Of a DNA stretch of 64,000 nt, positions 7,895 to 34,308 are shown one piece after another. The notes under the pieces are model-generated. The model had not been told where the DNA came from, ran no database searches, and saw only the letters and a list, made by a program, of their open reading frames with translations. Origin of the DNA: Chthoniobacterales bacterium (lineage in GTDB: Bacteria; Verrucomicrobiota; Verrucomicrobiia; Chthoniobacterales; DASVRZ01); contig JBDSQB010000017.1 of the NCBI GenBank assembly GCA_039930045.1, forward strand, positions 124,001 through 188,000, given 5' to 3'. Within the stretch, counting starts at the first letter, position 1; every line of letters begins with the position of its first letter. The translations under genes were made by a program, and so were the position numbers.

Positions 7895-9361
7895 CTAGCG
7901 GCGAAGCTGATAAAGCTGCAGCCCGGGGTGCAGGTTATAGACCATTCCGAGCGGCTCGCTCCAGCGCAGATCGGCCTGGGACTGGAGGTCCTGATAGAAG
8001 CTGCGCCGGCGGAGAAAGGTGGCTTGCGACGCGGCGCTGCCAGCCTGGAGCGGATTGTCGAATCGGCGGCATTCCACGTCGGCGACAGCGACCCAGGAGT
8101 AGCCCATTTTGCGCAACTCATCGAGCGTTCCGAGGTCGGCAACGTAGTCGGGTGGCGGCGTGCCTGCGGCAAACTGGCCTTGGTAAAAACCGGGCAAACG
8201 CGTCCAGAGACTGGTGGCTATTCGGTCGTTTTTAGAAAGGTGTGAGGCGGCCCACGCAGTGAGATCCGCGCGACTGTCCCCGCGAAAATCCTGGACCCAG
8301 CCGGCTAGCATGTAAACAGGGTGAAATCCGACGAGCGCGATCAGTATGGCGGTGACCCAAGGGCGGCTTTTCGGAGTGGCGAACCTGGCGAGAATATCGA
8401 CTCCGCAGGCTGCGAGATAGATGGTAATCGCCATGATTGGAAGAACGTAGCGATCGGAAATCTTGGGTGAGTAACTCATGAAGACCAAAATGACCAAGGC
8501 AGTAAATCCGAGGACAAACTCGACTGAAAAAAACTCTCCGTGGCGTTGAGTTAAAACCAATCCGAGCAGGGCGGTGATTAGCATGGGCCAGCCGTGCTGA
8601 TAGACTAGAATCTGCCAGTAGTCGGAGTGCGGAAATTCGCCGGAGACGCCGTCGTGACCGAGTGCCAGCATTCCGCTTTCGCGTCGGATGCCGGCGAACA
8701 ATTCTGGAATATGGGTTAGCCATTGCCAGTTGATCGCCAGCACTGTGAGAGTGACTGTTAGGAGAAATAAAAATGAGAGTTTGCGAGTCCGATGGAAGAC
8801 GACTGGAAGCAAGGCGACGATGAGAAGTGCGCCTGGATATTTGGCTGACGTGGCGATGCCCGCCGCCATGCCCAGAAAGATTACGTGGCGCACGTCTGGT
8901 GTGGTTAGGAAGTAGTCGAGCGCCAGCAAGCCGAGTGCAAGTCCCATGAAGAGAGCGGGGTCTTCCTTGCAGTAATGACTAACCTCGAAAAGCAGGGGGA
9001 GTGTTAGCAGTAGAAGGCCCGTGAGAATTCCCACCAGCGGCCCTTTTCTTCTCCAGGCAAATTGCACAAAGCAGACGACTCCCAGCGACGAGAAGAAGGC
9101 GGAAAGAGTGCGCCCCACCATGGTAATAAACTGGGCATTGTCTAGCTGGCCTGTAAGTTGTCCCAGCAAGCTAGTGGCGTTAAGCATCAACATCGGATGC
9201 CAATAGTTGCGATAGCCGTAAAGGAGTTGCAGCGCCTTGCTCTCCTCGTCACTATGATAAAAGTAGGGAAAGTGGTTGGCCCAGGTGTAGGCTAGAAAAG
9301 AGACTACAAAAAACAAGGCGAGTACCAGCCGGCTCTGGTGTGCTTCCAACTTGAATCTCAT
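7895..9361 (-). CDS. GT39/ArnT-like membrane glycosyltransferase
   Basis: A 488-residue polytopic protein with about 10-12 hydrophobic segments. The first extracytoplasmic loop carries the acidic motif FYHSDEESKALQLL, matching the DE-type motif of the PMT/ArnT superfamily, which transfers sugars from polyprenyl-phosphate carriers at the outer face of the inner membrane. The C-terminal soluble region (after about residue 380) is likely periplasmic. Start ATG at 9361 lies 8 nt after the stop of a second enzyme of the same type. Donor and acceptor are unknown; arabinose, mannose or other sugars are possible. Confidence 0.75.
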   Translation of the reverse strand: MRFKLEAHQSRLVLALFFVVSFLAYTWANHFPYFYHSDEESKALQLLYGYRNYWHPMLMLNATSLLGQLTGQLDNAQFITMVGRTLSAFFSSLGVVCFVQFAWRRKGPLVGILTGLLLLTLPLLFEVSHYCKEDPALFMGLALGLLALDYFLTTPDVRHVIFLGMAAGIATSAKYPGALLIVALLPVVFHRTRKLSFLFLLTVTLTVLAINWQWLTHIPELFAGIRRESGMLALGHDGVSGEFPHSDYWQILVYQHGWPMLITALLGLVLTQRHGEFFSVEFVLGFTALVILVFMSYSPKISDRYVLPIMAITIYLAACGVDILARFATPKSRPWVTAILIALVGFHPVYMLAGWVQDFRGDSRADLTAWAASHLSKNDRIATSLWTRLPGFYQGQFAAGTPPPDYVADLGTLDELRKMGYSWVAVADVECRRFDNPLQAGSAASQATFLRRRSFYQDLQSQADLRWSEPLGMVYNLHPGLQLYQLRR

Positions 9362-9369
9362 GATGGAGG

Positions 9370-10914
9370 CTAGCGTTCGCCGAGCACGAACAGAACGTGG
9401 GTTACATTGCCGCCTAGTTTGCGGGCATTCGGCCAATTTGTTGCGTCACTTCTCCTAACAATGAGATAGTTGCTGGGGGAGGCGGCAATTTCCGACTTCG
9501 ACTGGATGGTGTGAAGGCTCAAACCATGTGGCGCATAGAAGAGAAAGCTGCTGGCGGCGGGTAGTTGATCCGCCAGAAAAATCCGGGAGGAAGGCATGTA
9601 ACCCACCTCTACTTTTTTCCCGAAATCCTTCATCGTGCGCTGCCAGTCGTAGCGCGCCTTGGCGTCCAGCAAGTTGAATGCAAGTGGAATGGTAGACGCG
9701 GCGATAGTTAGGAGCGCGGCTCGGCTGTGACGGTAGAAAAGCGCGACCATCGCGGAGATGCAGAAGACAATGATGACGCCCAGCGAGAGCCACCAGATCG
9801 GCTGGAGCAGATTGAGCCATTCGCGGCCCGCAATGCGTCCGCAAAAGCCGAGACCCATAATGGCGAGCACGATGAGCAGCCCGACTCCTAACATTCGTAT
9901 GCGGCTGCTGGTTCGCTCCCAGATGATGCTGGAGAGCAGGGCGAAGATGGGACCGAGACACGCGCTGCTCGCGGGCCATTCGTCGGGTTTGGAAAAAAGC
10001 AAAACCCAACTCGTGCCGAGGACGAACAAACACCAGAGCACCGACTCGGCTGGCGTGAGTTCCTTGAGCCGCAGCACCTTGCGAATGCGGCAGAAAAACG
10101 GCGGCAGCATGACGATGGACCACGGGAAAAGCATCCAGAACACGCGGCCTGCATTCGCCGGAGCCCACGTGGGGAGCACGATCCAATGACTGTGAAAAAA
10201 GAGGATTAGCACGGCGAGAAAAAGTAGGTTGCAAGTGATCCACCACGGGAGTCGCAGTCGAATGCGTGCCTCACGAAAAAACGCAAACGGCGCCCAGACG
10301 CTGGCGATGCTGAGGATGGCAGCCGCCGGTTGGCCGAGGGCGAGCAGACCGCCCGCCGAGCACCAGTAGAGCAGGTGCCATTGCGGTCGGCTTTTTTGCT
10401 CCAGCATTCGGACCGCAGCGTAGAAGGAAAGCGTGAGCCAAAGGACAGTGAGAGCCGAGCCTCCGCCATCGCGACCGTGGAGAATCGTCCCGCTCATGGT
10501 CGCTGCGATGATCCCGGATGAAAGCGCGCGCCAGAAGCCACCGATGCGTTCCGCGATGAGGAAAACCAGCGCGACGACCAGCAGATTCGCGATGGCAAAA
10601 GGCAGACGCGCGGCGAGTTCGTTGACATTGAAAATCTGGAAACTTTCCGCCGTGATCCATTGCACCGGGCCGGCCTGGACGGGCTGATTCCACAACTGGC
10701 TGATCTGCGCGGGCCGTAAGCCGAGGGCGAGTTCGCGAGCGATGGCGGCGTTCATTCCGTCGCTGCCGTTGTTGATCGGACCCCAGCCGCAGGTGGCGAC
10801 GTGGAGGAGCGCGGCGAGCGCCAGCATGAAGAAAATCATCAGCCGCCGCTGGGGCGGAAGGGCGATGGGGCCCGCGGTGATCACTTCGAGCGTGGCGGCC
10901 GTGGGTTGGCTCAT
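9370..10914 (-). CDS. GT39/ArnT-like membrane glycosyltransferase, second copy
   Basis: A 514-residue polytopic protein. Following the first hydrophobic segment (about 25-45) is GPINNGSDGMNAAIARELA, a divergent form of the DE...AREM loop of ArnT/PMT-like transferases; the usual DE pair is reduced to SD. About ten further membrane segments follow, with a polar tail after about residue 420. It starts 3 nt after the thioesterase stop and precedes the other GT39-like gene by 8 nt, so the two may act on the same lipid-linked glycan. The weakened acidic motif makes catalytic activity less certain than for its neighbour. Confidence 0.68.
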   Translation of the reverse strand: MSQPTAATLEVITAGPIALPPQRRLMIFFMLALAALLHVATCGWGPINNGSDGMNAAIARELALGLRPAQISQLWNQPVQAGPVQWITAESFQIFNVNELAARLPFAIANLLVVALVFLIAERIGGFWRALSSGIIAATMSGTILHGRDGGGSALTVLWLTLSFYAAVRMLEQKSRPQWHLLYWCSAGGLLALGQPAAAILSIASVWAPFAFFREARIRLRLPWWITCNLLFLAVLILFFHSHWIVLPTWAPANAGRVFWMLFPWSIVMLPPFFCRIRKVLRLKELTPAESVLWCLFVLGTSWVLLFSKPDEWPASSACLGPIFALLSSIIWERTSSRIRMLGVGLLIVLAIMGLGFCGRIAGREWLNLLQPIWWLSLGVIIVFCISAMVALFYRHSRAALLTIAASTIPLAFNLLDAKARYDWQRTMKDFGKKVEVGYMPSSRIFLADQLPAASSFLFYAPHGLSLHTIQSKSEIAASPSNYLIVRRSDATNWPNARKLGGNVTHVLFVLGER

Positions 10915-29211: not shown

Positions 29212-29317
29212 AATAGTCATACTGCCCCCTGCGGGCTCTGCCTCGACTTCCGTCTTGGTTAATTGAACTGTCGCATTTGGCCGAGCAGGCTAAATAACGA
29301 CTAACGCGACTAAAAAA

Positions 29318-29343
29318 TAGCCACTTACTTTCTTGAGTGGCTA
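29318..29343 (-). terminator. inverted repeat, possible minus-strand terminator
   Basis: An 8-bp perfect stem (TAGCCACT / AGTGGCTA) with a 10-nt loop. Read on the minus strand, the stem is followed by six T residues (AAAAAA at 29312-29317 on plus), the layout of an intrinsic terminator. No minus-strand gene is seen just to the right, so it may instead shield the upstream operon or be a protein-binding site. Confidence 0.4.
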
Positions 29344-29429
29344 AATGTTGCCGTTTCTGGGCGGCATGTGAACGATTAAATCAACTGATCTTCAAAGCGT
29401 TCGCGCCACTTTCCGTGTCTGGAACAGTT

Positions 29430-29445
29430 TGGCACATGCGCTGCT
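29430..29445 (+). promoter_or_regulatory. sigma-54-like promoter
   Basis: TGGCACATGCGCTGCT matches the -24/-12 consensus TGGCACG-N4-TTGCW, with the invariant GG and GC at correct spacing. It lies 84 nt before the ATG of the 156-aa gene, which overlaps the frame leading to the PEP-CTERM protein. Sigma-54 control by PrsK/PrsR-type systems is described for PEP-CTERM genes in other bacteria. No activator site was identified. Confidence 0.38.
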
Positions 29446-29529
29446 AAGGTTGCAGCAGATCGAGCGCGCACATCCAAACGTTGCCATTCGTCACTTTCAC
29501 AAAGTCCATCATCACCGTTCTGTTTCATC

Positions 29530-30000
29530 ATGTCCCAAAACCTTGCCAGCCTCAATCTAACCACAGCAGACAACGCCGCTCTCGATGCCCACCTTGCGGG
29601 CATCGAGTCTATTCTCGCGGGGTGCCTCGTCAGCCTCACTCCGCAGCAGCGGCAGAGCCTAATCAAGATGGGACCGAAAAGTCGCACCTTCTGCGAGCAA
29701 GCTGTCCCCGGCATTGCCGCTAATGCCGCCAGCATGACGCCCGATTTCGACATCCCCGCGCTCCAGCAGGACCTCGCCGACTTTGGAGCGCTCGACGCCT
29801 TTTACACCCGCTACCTCACGCTCGGGGAAAAACTTGACGACACCCTCAAGGCGCTTTCCAGCGACGTAATGACCAACACCATCATCGGCGTCACCTTCCT
29901 AAAAGCGCTCAACAAGCTCAAACCCTCTCTCGACGCCCTGCTCAAGGCTCTCGGCAGCGTCCGCCGCGCCAAACCGAAGGCCAAACCCGTCACTCCATGA
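29530..30000 (+). CDS. hypothetical helical protein
   Basis: A 156-residue soluble, mostly alpha-helical protein without signal peptide. The N-terminal part (LTTADNAALDAHLAGIESIL) and the block LTPQQRQSLIKMGPKSRTFCEQAV look like a conserved domain; the C-terminus is basic (RRAKPKAKP). I recall similar small proteins in Verrucomicrobia and Bacteroidetes without known role. It ends in an ATGA overlap with the long frame carrying the PATR/PEP-CTERM protein, suggesting co-transcription from the sigma-54-like site. Confidence 0.7.
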   Translation: MSQNLASLNLTTADNAALDAHLAGIESILAGCLVSLTPQQRQSLIKMGPKSRTFCEQAVPGIAANAASMTPDFDIPALQQDLADFGALDAFYTRYLTLGEKLDDTLKALSSDVMTNTIIGVTFLKALNKLKPSLDALLKALGSVRRAKPKAKPVTP

Positions 30001-30170
30001 TGCTTTCCACGCTTCGCCTAAAACTTACCACCCCAACACCTGAACGCCCTGCCGCCTTCGCAGGTGAGTTCCATAGCCTTCCCACGAACGCTCAGAAGCA
30101 CATGATTCTAGTGCCTACCACCCTTCGCTTCAACGCTCGACACCTTTTGCCCAACGCACACCACCACACC

Positions 30171-32618
30171 ATGCAACGCACCAAACCATTCCCCGCAACG
30201 TCCAAGACCATTCGCGCGAATGCCTCCAGCCATTCTGCAAACGTACCTAGAATTCAGGCAAACGCTTCTGGGCATTCGCGAGGATGGAGGGCGACGTTCC
30301 TAAACAATGGTATTTGGGGGATTTCGGAGAAAAGCCGCTTAACGTGGTGCGTAGGGCTGATCGCGTATGGAGTGGGGCTGGTGTTCTGCCCTTCGTCACA
30401 GGCAGCTACCAACACGCTTAAGCCCGGCACCAATTTAAGCTGGGGTGTTTCAGGAAATTGGAGCCTCGGCACCACCCCTGCTGCCACCGATGCTCTTTTA
30501 CTCGACGGGAGTTCTGCGACCACATCCGGTCTTGCCTCCTCACCGAGCGTTCAGACGCTCAGCTTTAATACTGGATCCAATGCGATCACAATAAATTCGA
30601 CCACCACCACCGCTACTGGCGGTCGAACCTTAACGCTGAATGGAGGAACGAATGCGCTCGGCAATACTGATCTTCTCGACCTTAGCAGCACGACAAACGG
30701 CTCGGTAACAATAGGAGGAACGACTTCGACGGGGCTAATTACGATCGCCTTTGGCGTCAGTGGTAGTATTAATGTTGAGAATGCAAATGCTACGCTGACC
30801 CTTGGTTCCCAATCTATTGTTTCCGGGAGCAGCAAGTCGCTGACGAAATCGGGAGCGGGGACCTTGATCCTCGGAGGGGCCAACACGTATTCCGGTGGAA
30901 CATTCCTCAGCGCTGGCGGACTAAATATTAGCGGATCAGGAACTTTGGGTAGCACTTCTGGAACCTTGAATGTTTCTGGCGGCACACTCAATTTGGGAAC
31001 GACAACCCAGACGACCGGGGCTGCGACCATCTCCGGCGGCACAATCCAAAACGGCACGCTGACAAGCACCTCTTATACAGCGACCAACGCGGGGAGTGCC
31101 ACTGTTAGTGCTATTCTCGCCGGAAGCGGAAGCTTATCCATGAGTGGAGCCGGGACATTAACACTGAGCGGGGCAAATACTTACGTGGGCGGCACAATTC
31201 TAAGTAGCGGCACGCTGGGGCTAGGCAGCAGCAGCGTGGGAACGGTGACATCAGGCCCGATCGGCACTGGAACCCTCACCCTCACCGGAGGCACGCTACA
31301 AGCCAGCGGGGGAGATCGTTCCATTTCCAATTCCGTTGCAATTAACAGCAGCGCGGGGGCAACGGTATCTGGTTCGAATAATCTTACATTTTCGGGAGCG
31401 TTTACTGTCACGAGCAATAGCTCCTCCCTAACAAATAGCTTGAACGCGGGGAAGGGCCTGACGTTGTCCGGAGATGTGTTCCTATCGAACTCAAGCGGCA
31501 CCGGTCGCTCTCTGACTATCGATGGTAATGGTGAAACGAACATCAGCGGGGTCATCGCGAACTTCAATGGTTCGGGGGCAAGCGGCAACGTGATCAAAAG
31601 TGGCGCAGGAACGCTGATGCTTTCTAATCAAGCCAATACCTACACAGGCACTACCACGATCAGTGGAGGTATTTTGAGCGTCACAAGATTGGCAGACGCG
31701 GGTTCGACCAGCAGCATCGGAAACCGTGGCGACGCTGGGGCGACGGGGCTAGTAATTGACAGTGGGACGCTTAAATTCATCGGCACAACCGGAAACGGTA
31801 GCACCAATCGACGTTTCACAGTTGGTGTCGGCGGCGCAACGATTGACGCTTCTTCCTCCGACAATACTGCACTTGTCTTCACAAACACCGGCGCGCTGGG
31901 AGCGTCTGGGACGGGCGACCGCACGCTAACGCTGCAAGGCAGCACATCGGCCGCCGCGCAAAATTCTATTTCGAGCGTGATTGCAGATCCTAGCGGCGGC
32001 AAAACCGCCGTGACTAAGTCCGGTTCGAATACATGGGTCCTGAGCGGCAGTAATACTTACACCGGCGTGACGACCGTGAATCAAGGCACCCTCTTACTTG
32101 GCAAAAACAACACGCTTCAAACTGGCACTAGCGATTCCACCCGCACAGCGGTAGCCCTCGCAGGGGGAAACTTGTCAACGGGCGGTTTTTCGCAAGGTTC
32201 TACTGGTACTCCCACAACTTTGGGAGCACTCACTCTTTCTGGTAATTCTTCCATCACCTTGGGTAGCATCGCTGGAATCGAAACGCTGGCTTTCAGCGAC
32301 TTGGCAACCGATCTGTCAACATTCACTGGGGTGCTGACCATTTACAATTGGGAAGGCACTCGTGGATCTGCCAGTGGTGGAGACAACATTTTCTTCGCCA
32401 ATCTAGCTGGAGCGAATACCACCGACACATTCACCAATATTCAATTCAACATTGGTGGGACTCTTTACGGATCGAGGTTCACAACTGTTACGAACGGATT
32501 CGAGTTGTATGCCGATACGATCGCCGTTCCCGAGCCTTCAACATGGATCGGCGGCGGGGTAATTTTTGGACTCGCCGCGTGGAGCCAGCGCAAGCGATTT
32601 GCCCGGCAAGAAGCCTGA
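30171..32618 (+). CDS. autotransporter-associated-repeat protein with PEP-CTERM anchor
   Basis: From the ATG at 30171 this is an 815-residue surface protein. After a long basic leader is a hydrophobic signal segment (SRLTWCVGLIAYGVGLVF, cleavage near SSQAA). The mature region is Gly/Ser/Thr-rich beta-helix with at least four PATR units (GTLILGGANTYSGGTFL, GTLTLSGANTYVGGTIL, LMLSNQANTYTGTTTI, WVLSGSNTYTGVTTV). The end is VPEPSTW, a hydrophobic helix and RKRF, a classic PEP-CTERM signal for exosortase processing. The frame is open from ATG 29997, but residues encoded before 30171 look non-coding and repetitive. Confidence 0.82.
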   Translation: MQRTKPFPATSKTIRANASSHSANVPRIQANASGHSRGWRATFLNNGIWGISEKSRLTWCVGLIAYGVGLVFCPSSQAATNTLKPGTNLSWGVSGNWSLGTTPAATDALLLDGSSATTSGLASSPSVQTLSFNTGSNAITINSTTTTATGGRTLTLNGGTNALGNTDLLDLSSTTNGSVTIGGTTSTGLITIAFGVSGSINVENANATLTLGSQSIVSGSSKSLTKSGAGTLILGGANTYSGGTFLSAGGLNISGSGTLGSTSGTLNVSGGTLNLGTTTQTTGAATISGGTIQNGTLTSTSYTATNAGSATVSAILAGSGSLSMSGAGTLTLSGANTYVGGTILSSGTLGLGSSSVGTVTSGPIGTGTLTLTGGTLQASGGDRSISNSVAINSSAGATVSGSNNLTFSGAFTVTSNSSSLTNSLNAGKGLTLSGDVFLSNSSGTGRSLTIDGNGETNISGVIANFNGSGASGNVIKSGAGTLMLSNQANTYTGTTTISGGILSVTRLADAGSTSSIGNRGDAGATGLVIDSGTLKFIGTTGNGSTNRRFTVGVGGATIDASSSDNTALVFTNTGALGASGTGDRTLTLQGSTSAAAQNSISSVIADPSGGKTAVTKSGSNTWVLSGSNTYTGVTTVNQGTLLLGKNNTLQTGTSDSTRTAVALAGGNLSTGGFSQGSTGTPTTLGALTLSGNSSITLGSIAGIETLAFSDLATDLSTFTGVLTIYNWEGTRGSASGGDNIFFANLAGANTTDTFTNIQFNIGGTLYGSRFTTVTNGFELYADTIAVPEPSTWIGGGVIFGLAAWSQRKRFARQEA
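30209..30222. repeat. 14-bp perfect palindrome inside a degenerate 42-nt repeat
   Basis: CATTCGCGCGAATG is self-complementary. It lies at the beginning of a stretch (about 30209-30295) whose two halves repeat loosely with a 42-nt period, encoding IRANASSHSANVP then IQANASGHSRGW in the frame of the PEP-CTERM gene. This is just before the signal-peptide region. Confidence 0.4.
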
Positions 32619-32739
32619 GTTTTATCCTACGGCATTCCAAAGGACGTCCAGTCGGACGTTTTCTGACTGCGTTCAATTCTATTTACAGTCATAAATAGGC
32701 AGAAAGGCGTAGCATAAGACACTGTTTTTCGTGCCGCTC

Positions 32740-34308
32740 ATGCCTAAAAATTCCACAGATTCCTACCACACGGACCTGGCCACTTTGCAGCATCTGGCGG
32801 ACACCATGCCGCAGATTGTCTGGATTAGTCGGCCCGACGGGTATCACGAGTATTACAACAAGCAGTGGTGGGATTTTACCGGGATGACGTGGGACGAAGC
32901 GCGCGGCGACGGGTGGAATCTTTTGTTGCACCCGGAGGATCGCGACCGGGCGATTGAACGCTGGCAGCATTCCCTGAAAACCGGCGAACCCTACGAGATC
33001 GAATACCGCTTTCTGCGTTCGCGCGATGGGGAGTATCGCTGGTTTCTCGGGCGCGCGATGCCTCAGAAGGACGCCGATGGGAAAATCATTCGCTGGTTTG
33101 GCACCTGCACCGAAATCCACGAGCAAAAACTGGTCGAGGAACAACTGCGCGCCGCCCGCGACGACATGGCTTCGGCCAACGAGCAGAAGGACCAGTTTCT
33201 CGCCCTGCTTTCGCACGAGCTGCGAACGCCATTGAACTCGATTCTCGGCTGGACGCGCCTCATGCAGGAGGGCCTGCTGGAGCCGGACGAACTCCCTGAG
33301 GCCATCGATTCGATCACAAACAACGCGAAGGCGCAGGCGCAGTTGATCGAGGACATCCTGGACATTAGCCGGATCATCAATGACAAACTCCGGCTCGAAA
33401 AACGCGTCCTGCAGCTCGCCGATGTCGTGAAAGCAGCGGCGGACGCCATTCGCCCCGTCGCCACCCAGGCCAAACTGCGCGTCGCCCACACCGTCGAGGC
33501 CACCGATTTACTCGTCGAAGCTGATCCCGGCCGACTCCAGCAAATCGTGGCCAATCTGCTCGCAAACGCGGTCAAATTCACGCCGCCGGGCGGTCGCATC
33601 GACTTGCGTCTCACCCGTGCGCAATCCTTTGCAAGCATCGAAGTGAGCGACACCGGACGCGGCATCGAGCCAGCGTTTCTGCCCTATATTTTCGACCGCT
33701 TCAAGCAGGCCGACAGCTCGAACACGCGGCAGGAAGGCGGCCTCGGCCTCGGTCTCGCCATTGTGCGCCACCTCGTAGAAATGCACGGCGGCATCATTCG
33801 CGCCGCCAGCGATGGACCGGGTAAAGGGTCCACTTTTACCGTGCTGCTGCCAGTGGTTGCGGTGGATTTGCGCTCCGCGAATAAAAGCCAGGAGGCGAAT
33901 CAGGTTTTACCCGCCGCAGAAGCGTTAAAAAACCTGCAAATCCTCATCGTCGATGATGACGAGAGCGCCCGGGAAATGATCGCGCTCACGCTGCGGAAAT
34001 TTGGTGCCCAAGTCGAGTGCGCCAGCAATGTTGCCGACGCGCTGGAATCGTTGGAAAAAGGCTTTCCGCAACTGCTCATCAGCGACATCGCCATGCCCGG
34101 CGCGGACGGCTATGAGCTGATCCGAGCCTTGCGAAAAATGGAGGCCGACCACGCGCGGCGGATTCCGGCGATTGCGCTCACTGCATTTGCCAGTGTGCAG
34201 GATCGCAGCCGGGCGATGGAACTCGGGTTTCATCTCCATCTGTCGAAACCGATCGAGCCACTCCAACTCATTCGCGCGGTGGCGGCGCTCGTGCCCAAAG
34301 GGGTTTGA
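32740..34308 (+). CDS. PAS hybrid histidine kinase/response regulator
   Basis: A 522-residue cytoplasmic hybrid kinase with no membrane segment. Order: PAS domain (about 15-135; PQIVWISRPDGYHEYYN, FTGMTWDEARGDGW), HisKA with LLSHELRTPLNS (phospho-His near residue 159), HATPase (NLLANAVKFTPPG, DTGRGIEP, GLGLGLAIVRHL), then a receiver domain from about 390 (LIVDDDES, phospho-acceptor in LLISDIAMPG, ALTAFAS, LSKPIEP). A GTG at 32731 is an alternative start. With no output domain, it probably works in a phosphorelay. It precedes the lipoprotein esterase gene by 38 nt. Confidence 0.9.
   Translation: MPKNSTDSYHTDLATLQHLADTMPQIVWISRPDGYHEYYNKQWWDFTGMTWDEARGDGWNLLLHPEDRDRAIERWQHSLKTGEPYEIEYRFLRSRDGEYRWFLGRAMPQKDADGKIIRWFGTCTEIHEQKLVEEQLRAARDDMASANEQKDQFLALLSHELRTPLNSILGWTRLMQEGLLEPDELPEAIDSITNNAKAQAQLIEDILDISRIINDKLRLEKRVLQLADVVKAAADAIRPVATQAKLRVAHTVEATDLLVEADPGRLQQIVANLLANAVKFTPPGGRIDLRLTRAQSFASIEVSDTGRGIEPAFLPYIFDRFKQADSSNTRQEGGLGLGLAIVRHLVEMHGGIIRAASDGPGKGSTFTVLLPVVAVDLRSANKSQEANQVLPAAEALKNLQILIVDDDESAREMIALTLRKFGAQVECASNVADALESLEKGFPQLLISDIAMPGADGYELIRALRKMEADHARRIPAIALTAFASVQDRSRAMELGFHLHLSKPIEPLQLIRAVAALVPKGV

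Follow-up and report, generated by a model that had tools for sequence, protein, structure and literature searches.

The window, the whole 64,000-nucleotide stretch of DNA analysed here (C17:124001-188000), belongs to a verrucomicrobial genome of 3.52 Mb that is 99.88% complete. The near-consensus -24/-12 element of the original prediction is real: TGGCACATGCGCTGCT reads directly from the plus strand at 29430-29445. The element is separated by 84 nt from the start codon of a small gene, ORF1, and lies 551 nt upstream of an open reading frame for a PEP-CTERM protein. The locus comprises the following features.

29318-29343, no strand assigned: dyad TAGCCACT-N10-AGTGGCTA, a candidate activator site or a leftward terminator
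29430-29445, plus strand: putative sigma-54 (-24/-12) promoter, TGGCAC-ATGCG-CTGCT, among the genome's 16 intergenic upstream sites
29530-30000, plus strand: ORF1, 156 aa, the first gene behind the putative promoter, of an uncharacterised family and helical in low-confidence models
29997-32618, plus strand: PATR/PEP-CTERM ORF, 873 aa from its first ATG, with the last ATG before the signal peptide at 30171
30001-30320, plus strand: weak array of degenerate repeats of about 22 bp (period 22, score 0.41-0.42), located behind ORF1 and ahead of the signal peptide that the PEP-CTERM ORF encodes

The stop codon of ORF1 overlaps the ATG at 29997 by 4 bases, and for the layout of the reading frames the proposed two-gene unit ending in a PEP-CTERM protein is a fair description. 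The 873-aa ORF contains four PATR repeats and a C-terminal PEP-CTERM, which scores below the Pfam cut-off of 20.7 (16.3 bits as a protein and 19.5 in the genome search). The 5' end of this ORF is uncertain because, past the ATG at 30171, the next ATG, GTG or TTG codon is the GTG at 30372, which already lies inside the signal peptide. Scanning for terminator-like sites on the plus strand found none between the two ORFs and one hairpin inside ORF1 (29581-29607, 10 pairs with a T-rich tail), which counts weakly against read-through to the PEP-CTERM ORF; the scan gave 2 plus-strand sites in all where 1.6 were expected.

The letters at 29430-29445 are by themselves modest evidence for a sigma-54 promoter, because the site has two mismatches to the strict consensus TGGCACGNNNNTTGCW, and places with two mismatches occur in the window at chance level (9 against 12.5 expected). 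The relaxed pattern TGGCACRNNNNYTGCW, which was picked post hoc with the site already known, matches once in the window compared with 0.06 expected from shuffles. No sigma-70-like site was found on the plus strand between 29180 and 30420. By eye, a further dyad, GCTGC-TAAGGTT-GCAGC at 29440-29456, extends over the -12 box into the bases that follow and is a candidate repressor site.

What convinces more than the sequence is where such sites lie in the genome. The pattern TGGCAC-N6-TGCW has 23 matches, compared with 15 for the reversed control pattern, and of these 23, 16 lie between genes and are followed at 11-95 bp by a gene start on the same strand, according to gene calls from a simple codon model trained on the window. 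The other seven lie inside predicted genes, two of them (L037 and L043) at the gene end, where the next same-strand gene follows 27 or 87 bp on. When the boxes were kept and the spacer was made wrong (N7/N8), 27 sites were obtained, 26 of them inside predicted genes, some of which are weak predictions, and a single one intergenic. An intergenic position no more than 150 bp before a same-strand gene is thus taken by 16/23 N6 sites and by 0/27 N7/N8 sites (Fisher 5e-8); if the intergenic condition is dropped, the counts that close to a gene are 18/23 and 0/27, and the nearest control lies at 198 bp. About 0.029 of the bases per strand fall in such intergenic pre-gene places, and therefore about 0.4 of the 15 reversed-pattern matches would be expected there. 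At seven of the 16 intergenic sites the called start follows just 11-20 bp behind, leaving hardly any leader, so some called starts or some sites must be wrong.

Within this set of 16, the -12 box of the window's site, CTGC instead of TTGC, is the commonest form (C in 9 sites, T in 5), as is the A/T after the box, and a leave-one-out ranking on the positions outside TGGCAC-N6-TGCW places the site 7th of 16. The 15 targets besides ORF1 include, by Pfam, P-II, two proteins with an N-terminal methylation motif (the type IV pilin motif), an ECF sigma factor, a C-methyltransferase, a PLD-like protein, a thioredoxin, a creatininase, a PAS protein, one PEP-CTERM protein and a transglutaminase-like protein just at the cut-off; four have no Pfam match at the thresholds used. 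P-II and pilins are classical sigma-54 targets. On contig C10 (210000-214000) a PEP-CTERM gene and a downstream PLD-like gene each carry a sigma-54-like site whose distance to the called start is 11-12 bp (L070, L040, L041), and the two proteins have similar N-termini (MAKLLSTSAT and MAKFLNTSAT), a likeness that would fit a copying of promoter and start together.

The machinery is also present. The genome has one rpoN, as the earlier check had asked (427.7 bits against a cut-off of 277.35), and nine matches to PF00158 (Sigma54_activat), six of which are full domains with 221.7-250.9 bits. With this rpoN, the six activators and the 16/23 versus 0/27 placement that it shares with its 15 sister sites, the site at 29430-29445 is very probably a working sigma-54 promoter. 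It resembles established sigma-54 (RpoN) promoters in the motif TGGCAC-N5-YTGCW with its strict spacing, in the presence of rpoN and AAA+ activators, and in having sister sites at P-II and pilin-like genes; no difference in sequence was seen.

The original prediction went further and suggested that RpoN together with the PrsK/PrsR pair may control PEP-CTERM genes here as in other bacteria. The accessible portion of Haft 2006 (PMC1569441) describes for Proteobacteria a -24/-12 motif and, about 63 nt upstream of it, a second one, motif 1, whose last letters are TTTACA, with motif 1 standing 32-92 nt before the -24/-12 motif. These motifs precede 99 of the 167 PEP-CTERM genes from Proteobacteria, at a distance to the start of 71 (SD 38.5) nt, and the system further comprises PrsK, PrsR and PrsT. 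According to the same text the motifs are shared by Proteobacteria only; its table, in the portion available, credits Verrucomicrobium spinosum with 65 PEP-CTERM proteins and with none of the Prs genes. The locus resembles that arrangement in having a -24/-12 element at a similar distance, the 84 nt at ORF1 fitting the published range, before a unit containing a PEP-CTERM ORF. It differs from the system as described in that portion in that the first gene, ORF1, is not a PEP-CTERM gene, in that the motif 1 core is absent, in that neither PrsK nor PrsR is over its cut-off, and in that no PEP-CTERM enrichment is demonstrated. TTTACA, the six-base core to which the motif 1 test was confined (the full motif is a 17-nt logo), is missing from 29212-29429, where the sense strand holds nothing within one mismatch and the nearest sequence is TTCACA on the opposite strand, with one mismatch. 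A parallel in letters is the RpoN-dependent pepA of Aquincola tertiaricarbonis, for which the accessible part of PMC9850573 gives a -24 TGGCAC and a -12 CTGCTT, compared with TGGCAC and CTGCTA here; unlike here, the start mapped there is the PEP-CTERM gene's own, and PrsK/PrsR are present.

Searches for the Prs partners ended below the thresholds. The best of 52 genome matches to PrsK (TIGR02916) reaches 105 bits against a cut-off of 300, and the six activators score 304-403 bits on PrsR (TIGR02915) against 502.6. For one activator, L058 (C3:189942-190433), PrsR is the top-scoring NCBIfam model with 400.7 bits, followed by AtoC with 398.8; a kinase domain at C3:190934-191524 (25.1 bits on PrsK) adjoins it, and no other place in the genome comes closer to a PrsK/PrsR pair. 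The hybrid histidine kinase encoded just downstream of the PEP-CTERM ORF (32731-34308) scores 77.2 bits on PrsK, below the cut-off, and shows no sigma-54 activator domain in Pfam.

A PEP-CTERM/exosortase system is present in the genome, with four exosortase matches (PF09721) in three places and 29 matches to PF07589, 22 of them over the cut-off. Twenty-seven PEP-CTERM genes are credible, after removal of C13:11148 and C5:61136, in which the motif is not C-terminal; one of the 27, C9:150655, runs off its contig and lacks its upstream region, so that it can count only as a miss. Around the first starts of these genes, sites scoring at least 10, by ad hoc position weights rather than ones fitted to published promoters, occur in three sense and three antisense regions. 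The sense regions are those of C10:211346, C14:47448 and C16:39805; the antisense sites include the pilin promoter L032, and the element at 29430-29445 lies outside this first-start scan, being 551 nt before its PEP-CTERM ORF. The enrichment at other PEP-CTERM genes that the earlier proposal called for is therefore not seen, in numbers that are small. With codon-chosen starts, a score of 12 is reached by 1/27 PEP-CTERM genes versus 4/119 other genes, a comparison in which the C14 start was misplaced and the background included both the site under study and genes adjoining PEP-CTERM genes; with the C14 start corrected and our own site removed, the counts are 2/27 versus 3/118 (Fisher 0.23). Seen from the sites, one of the 15 other strict intergenic sites precedes a PEP-CTERM gene where 0.12 would be expected (P 0.12), an expectation that rests on about 3,250 genes, estimated from 59 in the window. 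On these small numbers sigma-54 sites may have a mild preference for PEP-CTERM genes, and single PEP-CTERM genes may well be sigma-54 dependent. A class-wide PEP-CTERM regulon is unsupported: the counts show no enrichment, no PrsK/PrsR is over the cut-offs and the motif 1 core is absent.

ORF1 has no Pfam family at the cut-off and no match in NCBIfam, PHROGs or PADLOC, and two AlphaFold2 runs gave mean pLDDT values of 43 and 46. Its relative L108 found no match in solved structures and none in viral contigs. Searched with an HMM built on five members, 286 genomes of the class gave 27 family matches, spread over 19 genomes with this one among them. A 15-row HMM found matches in 6 of 387 genomes of a phylum-wide sample and four matches in one Nostoc genome; tblastn added one member on a Thiodictyon plasmid. 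A scan of genome contigs with ORF1 itself returned no relatives, the sampled relatives being no closer than order, and a contig scan with a relative returned just that relative and a Nostoc fragment. Upstream of the other 26 family matches (four of them partial, one with 137 bp of upstream sequence) no sigma-54 site reaches a score of 12, and as far as seen the promoter is local to the window's ORF1 copy. An ORF1 paralogue in the genome (C19:20967-21437; L092/L104) has a clear 21-bp array downstream, and its best upstream sigma-54 site scores 5.0, which is not strong. Within 1.5 kb of the other 26 matches, two motif strings detected no PATR or PEP-CTERM sign except one short match at L110, which is carried by no frame of 80 aa or more.

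Degenerate 21-bp arrays, many of them palindromic, often adjoin genes of the ORF1 family in Verrucomicrobiota and Nostoc. With an array defined by a best period of 21 and a score of at least 0.44, one follows 14 of the 24 members that have 220 bp or more of downstream sequence (L105, L109 and L116, with less, are left out), and one precedes 3/26 (leaving out L102, with 137 bp). The arrays were first noticed beside the first five members; without these five, which gave rise to the idea, the downstream count is 10/19, and some array-bearing members share a genome or are near relatives and hence are not independent. Among 900-bp control segments the same definition is reached by 1/245 from other genomes and 2/196 from this genome. 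In Nostoc, two of three full-length members carry arrays (0.70 and 0.71), the third shows period 21 at 0.40 with 230 bp downstream, and the fragment L128 also has an array. The member on the Thiodictyon plasmid has none. In the window, the array at 30001-30320 is not significant alone, since 0.40 is reached by 16/125 control segments; it occupies the position where relatives carry their 21-bp arrays.

The arrays hold from 10 units, the minimum of the method, to 25, and the unit differs from genome to genome (TTGACCnCTTTggGGTCAA in G188, tcGTcAgTccACT.ACg in G005). Tested against column permutations, 14 of the 19 arrays have a unit with an excess of palindromy (p < 0.05, uncorrected), and the other five do not reach that level; L114 shows no palindrome by a simpler consensus test and is palindromic by column permutation. 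A length of 21 bp corresponds to two helical turns. We considered the arrays as coding sequence and rejected this, as their open frames vary in strand and frame across genomes with no consistent pattern. In G188, a 21-bp palindromic CAGAATnATTCTG array (L174, about 9285-9600) follows an unrelated gene of 2443 aa with GEHGAG/GQDGAS-type repeats; such arrays are therefore not exclusive to the ORF1 family. We propose, tentatively and with slightly less than even confidence, that the family constitutes an undescribed gene-array system, in which the gene of a small protein would adjoin at least ten degenerate units, each a 21-bp palindrome, with letters particular to each genome, as if protein and operator array had co-evolved. 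One such unit would here be under sigma-54 control, and the protein may bind the array, for example as a nucleation or anchoring site. Against the pairing of gene and array, 10 of the 24 members lack a downstream 21-bp array by the definition used; the weakness of the window's array, the bare Thiodictyon member, the G188 array at an unrelated gene and the five arrays without significant palindromy count against it too. No description of a small family with attached 21-bp arrays was found in titles or abstract openings of the papers searched, and the pairing is a more novel lead than the promoter.

The element at 29430-29445 is, in our judgement, very probably a genuine, working sigma-54 promoter before the uncharacterised gene ORF1. 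What we infer is its mode of action: RpoN-RNA polymerase would bind the -24 GG and the -12 GC and stay closed until one of the genome's AAA+ activators, bound upstream and perhaps at the dyad 29318-29343, opened the complex. Transcription would start about 11-12 nt past the -12 GC, giving ORF1 a leader of roughly 70 nt. The dyad, with perfect 8-bp arms and a 10-base gap, starts 112 bp before the -24/-12 site, and its core (29319-29342) occurs nowhere else in the genome with one mismatch or less. Because six T follow it on the minus strand, a leftward terminator is a possible alternative reading. Among 18 upstream regions, one other contains a dyad of this geometry; it precedes L035, beside an activator gene, and starts 110 bp upstream.

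Could the element be a chance match, with ORF1 transcribed from an ordinary promoter missed by the consensus scan? Its two mismatches to the strict consensus are not rare in the window and would allow this, but the spacing-dependent placement of the whole set of sites before genes argues the other way, and we regard a chance match as improbable. Still less probable, and in our view very unlikely, is that the element belongs to a PEP-CTERM regulon of the proteobacterial type, in which RpoN would act with partners resembling PrsK/PrsR. Such a regulon would account for strong sites at two other PEP-CTERM genes, C10:211346 (with CTGGCACTCGCTTTGCT 29 bp ahead of the ATG) and C14:47448 (with GTGGCATACATATTGCA 50 bp ahead of the first ATG), a moderate one (10.1) at C16:39805, the PEP-CTERM gene behind one of the 15 other strict intergenic sites, and the PrsR-like activator L058 with its adjoining kinase domain. 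It is opposed by the equal sense and antisense counts, the absence of a significant excess over other genes even after correction, the sub-threshold PrsK and PrsR scores, the missing motif 1 core on the sense strand, and the restriction of the motifs to Proteobacteria, with no Prs genes listed for V. spinosum, in the available text of PMC1569441. Of the original proposal, a sigma-54 promoter in a phylum other than Proteobacteria is supported, in a genome with rpoN and six activators; control of PEP-CTERM genes by PrsK/PrsR is unsupported.

A sigma-54 promoter for ORF1 is compatible with two views of the gene behind it. Transcription from this promoter may continue into the PEP-CTERM ORF, given the overlap of the two frames and a scan that detected no terminator-like site between them; co-expression with ORF1 is possible. 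Alternatively, and with a probability that we put only a little short of even, the promoter serves ORF1, with the repeat array, and no further gene, and the PEP-CTERM ORF starts on its own from a separate promoter or has a 5' end damaged where the unit of ORF1 and array meets it. The lack of a start codon from 30171 to the signal peptide, by which a long stretch read from the array precedes the PEP-CTERM ORF, would fit this separation, as would the flanks of the other 26 family matches, free of PATR/PEP-CTERM signs apart from the short L110 match, and the terminator-like hairpin inside ORF1; the 4-base overlap and the scan's lack of a terminator-like site between the ORFs speak against it.

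Taken with its sister sites, the promoter before ORF1 gives a verrucomicrobial genome with a readable sigma-54 regulon, which covers P-II, pilin-like genes, an ECF sigma factor, a PAS-domain protein, ORF1 and at least one PEP-CTERM gene. This regulon is thereby set apart from the tempting, unsupported claim that PrsK/PrsR-style control of PEP-CTERM genes crosses phyla. A second outcome is a family of small proteins, found in Verrucomicrobiota and a Nostoc, whose genes often adjoin 21-bp arrays with a frequently palindromic unit.
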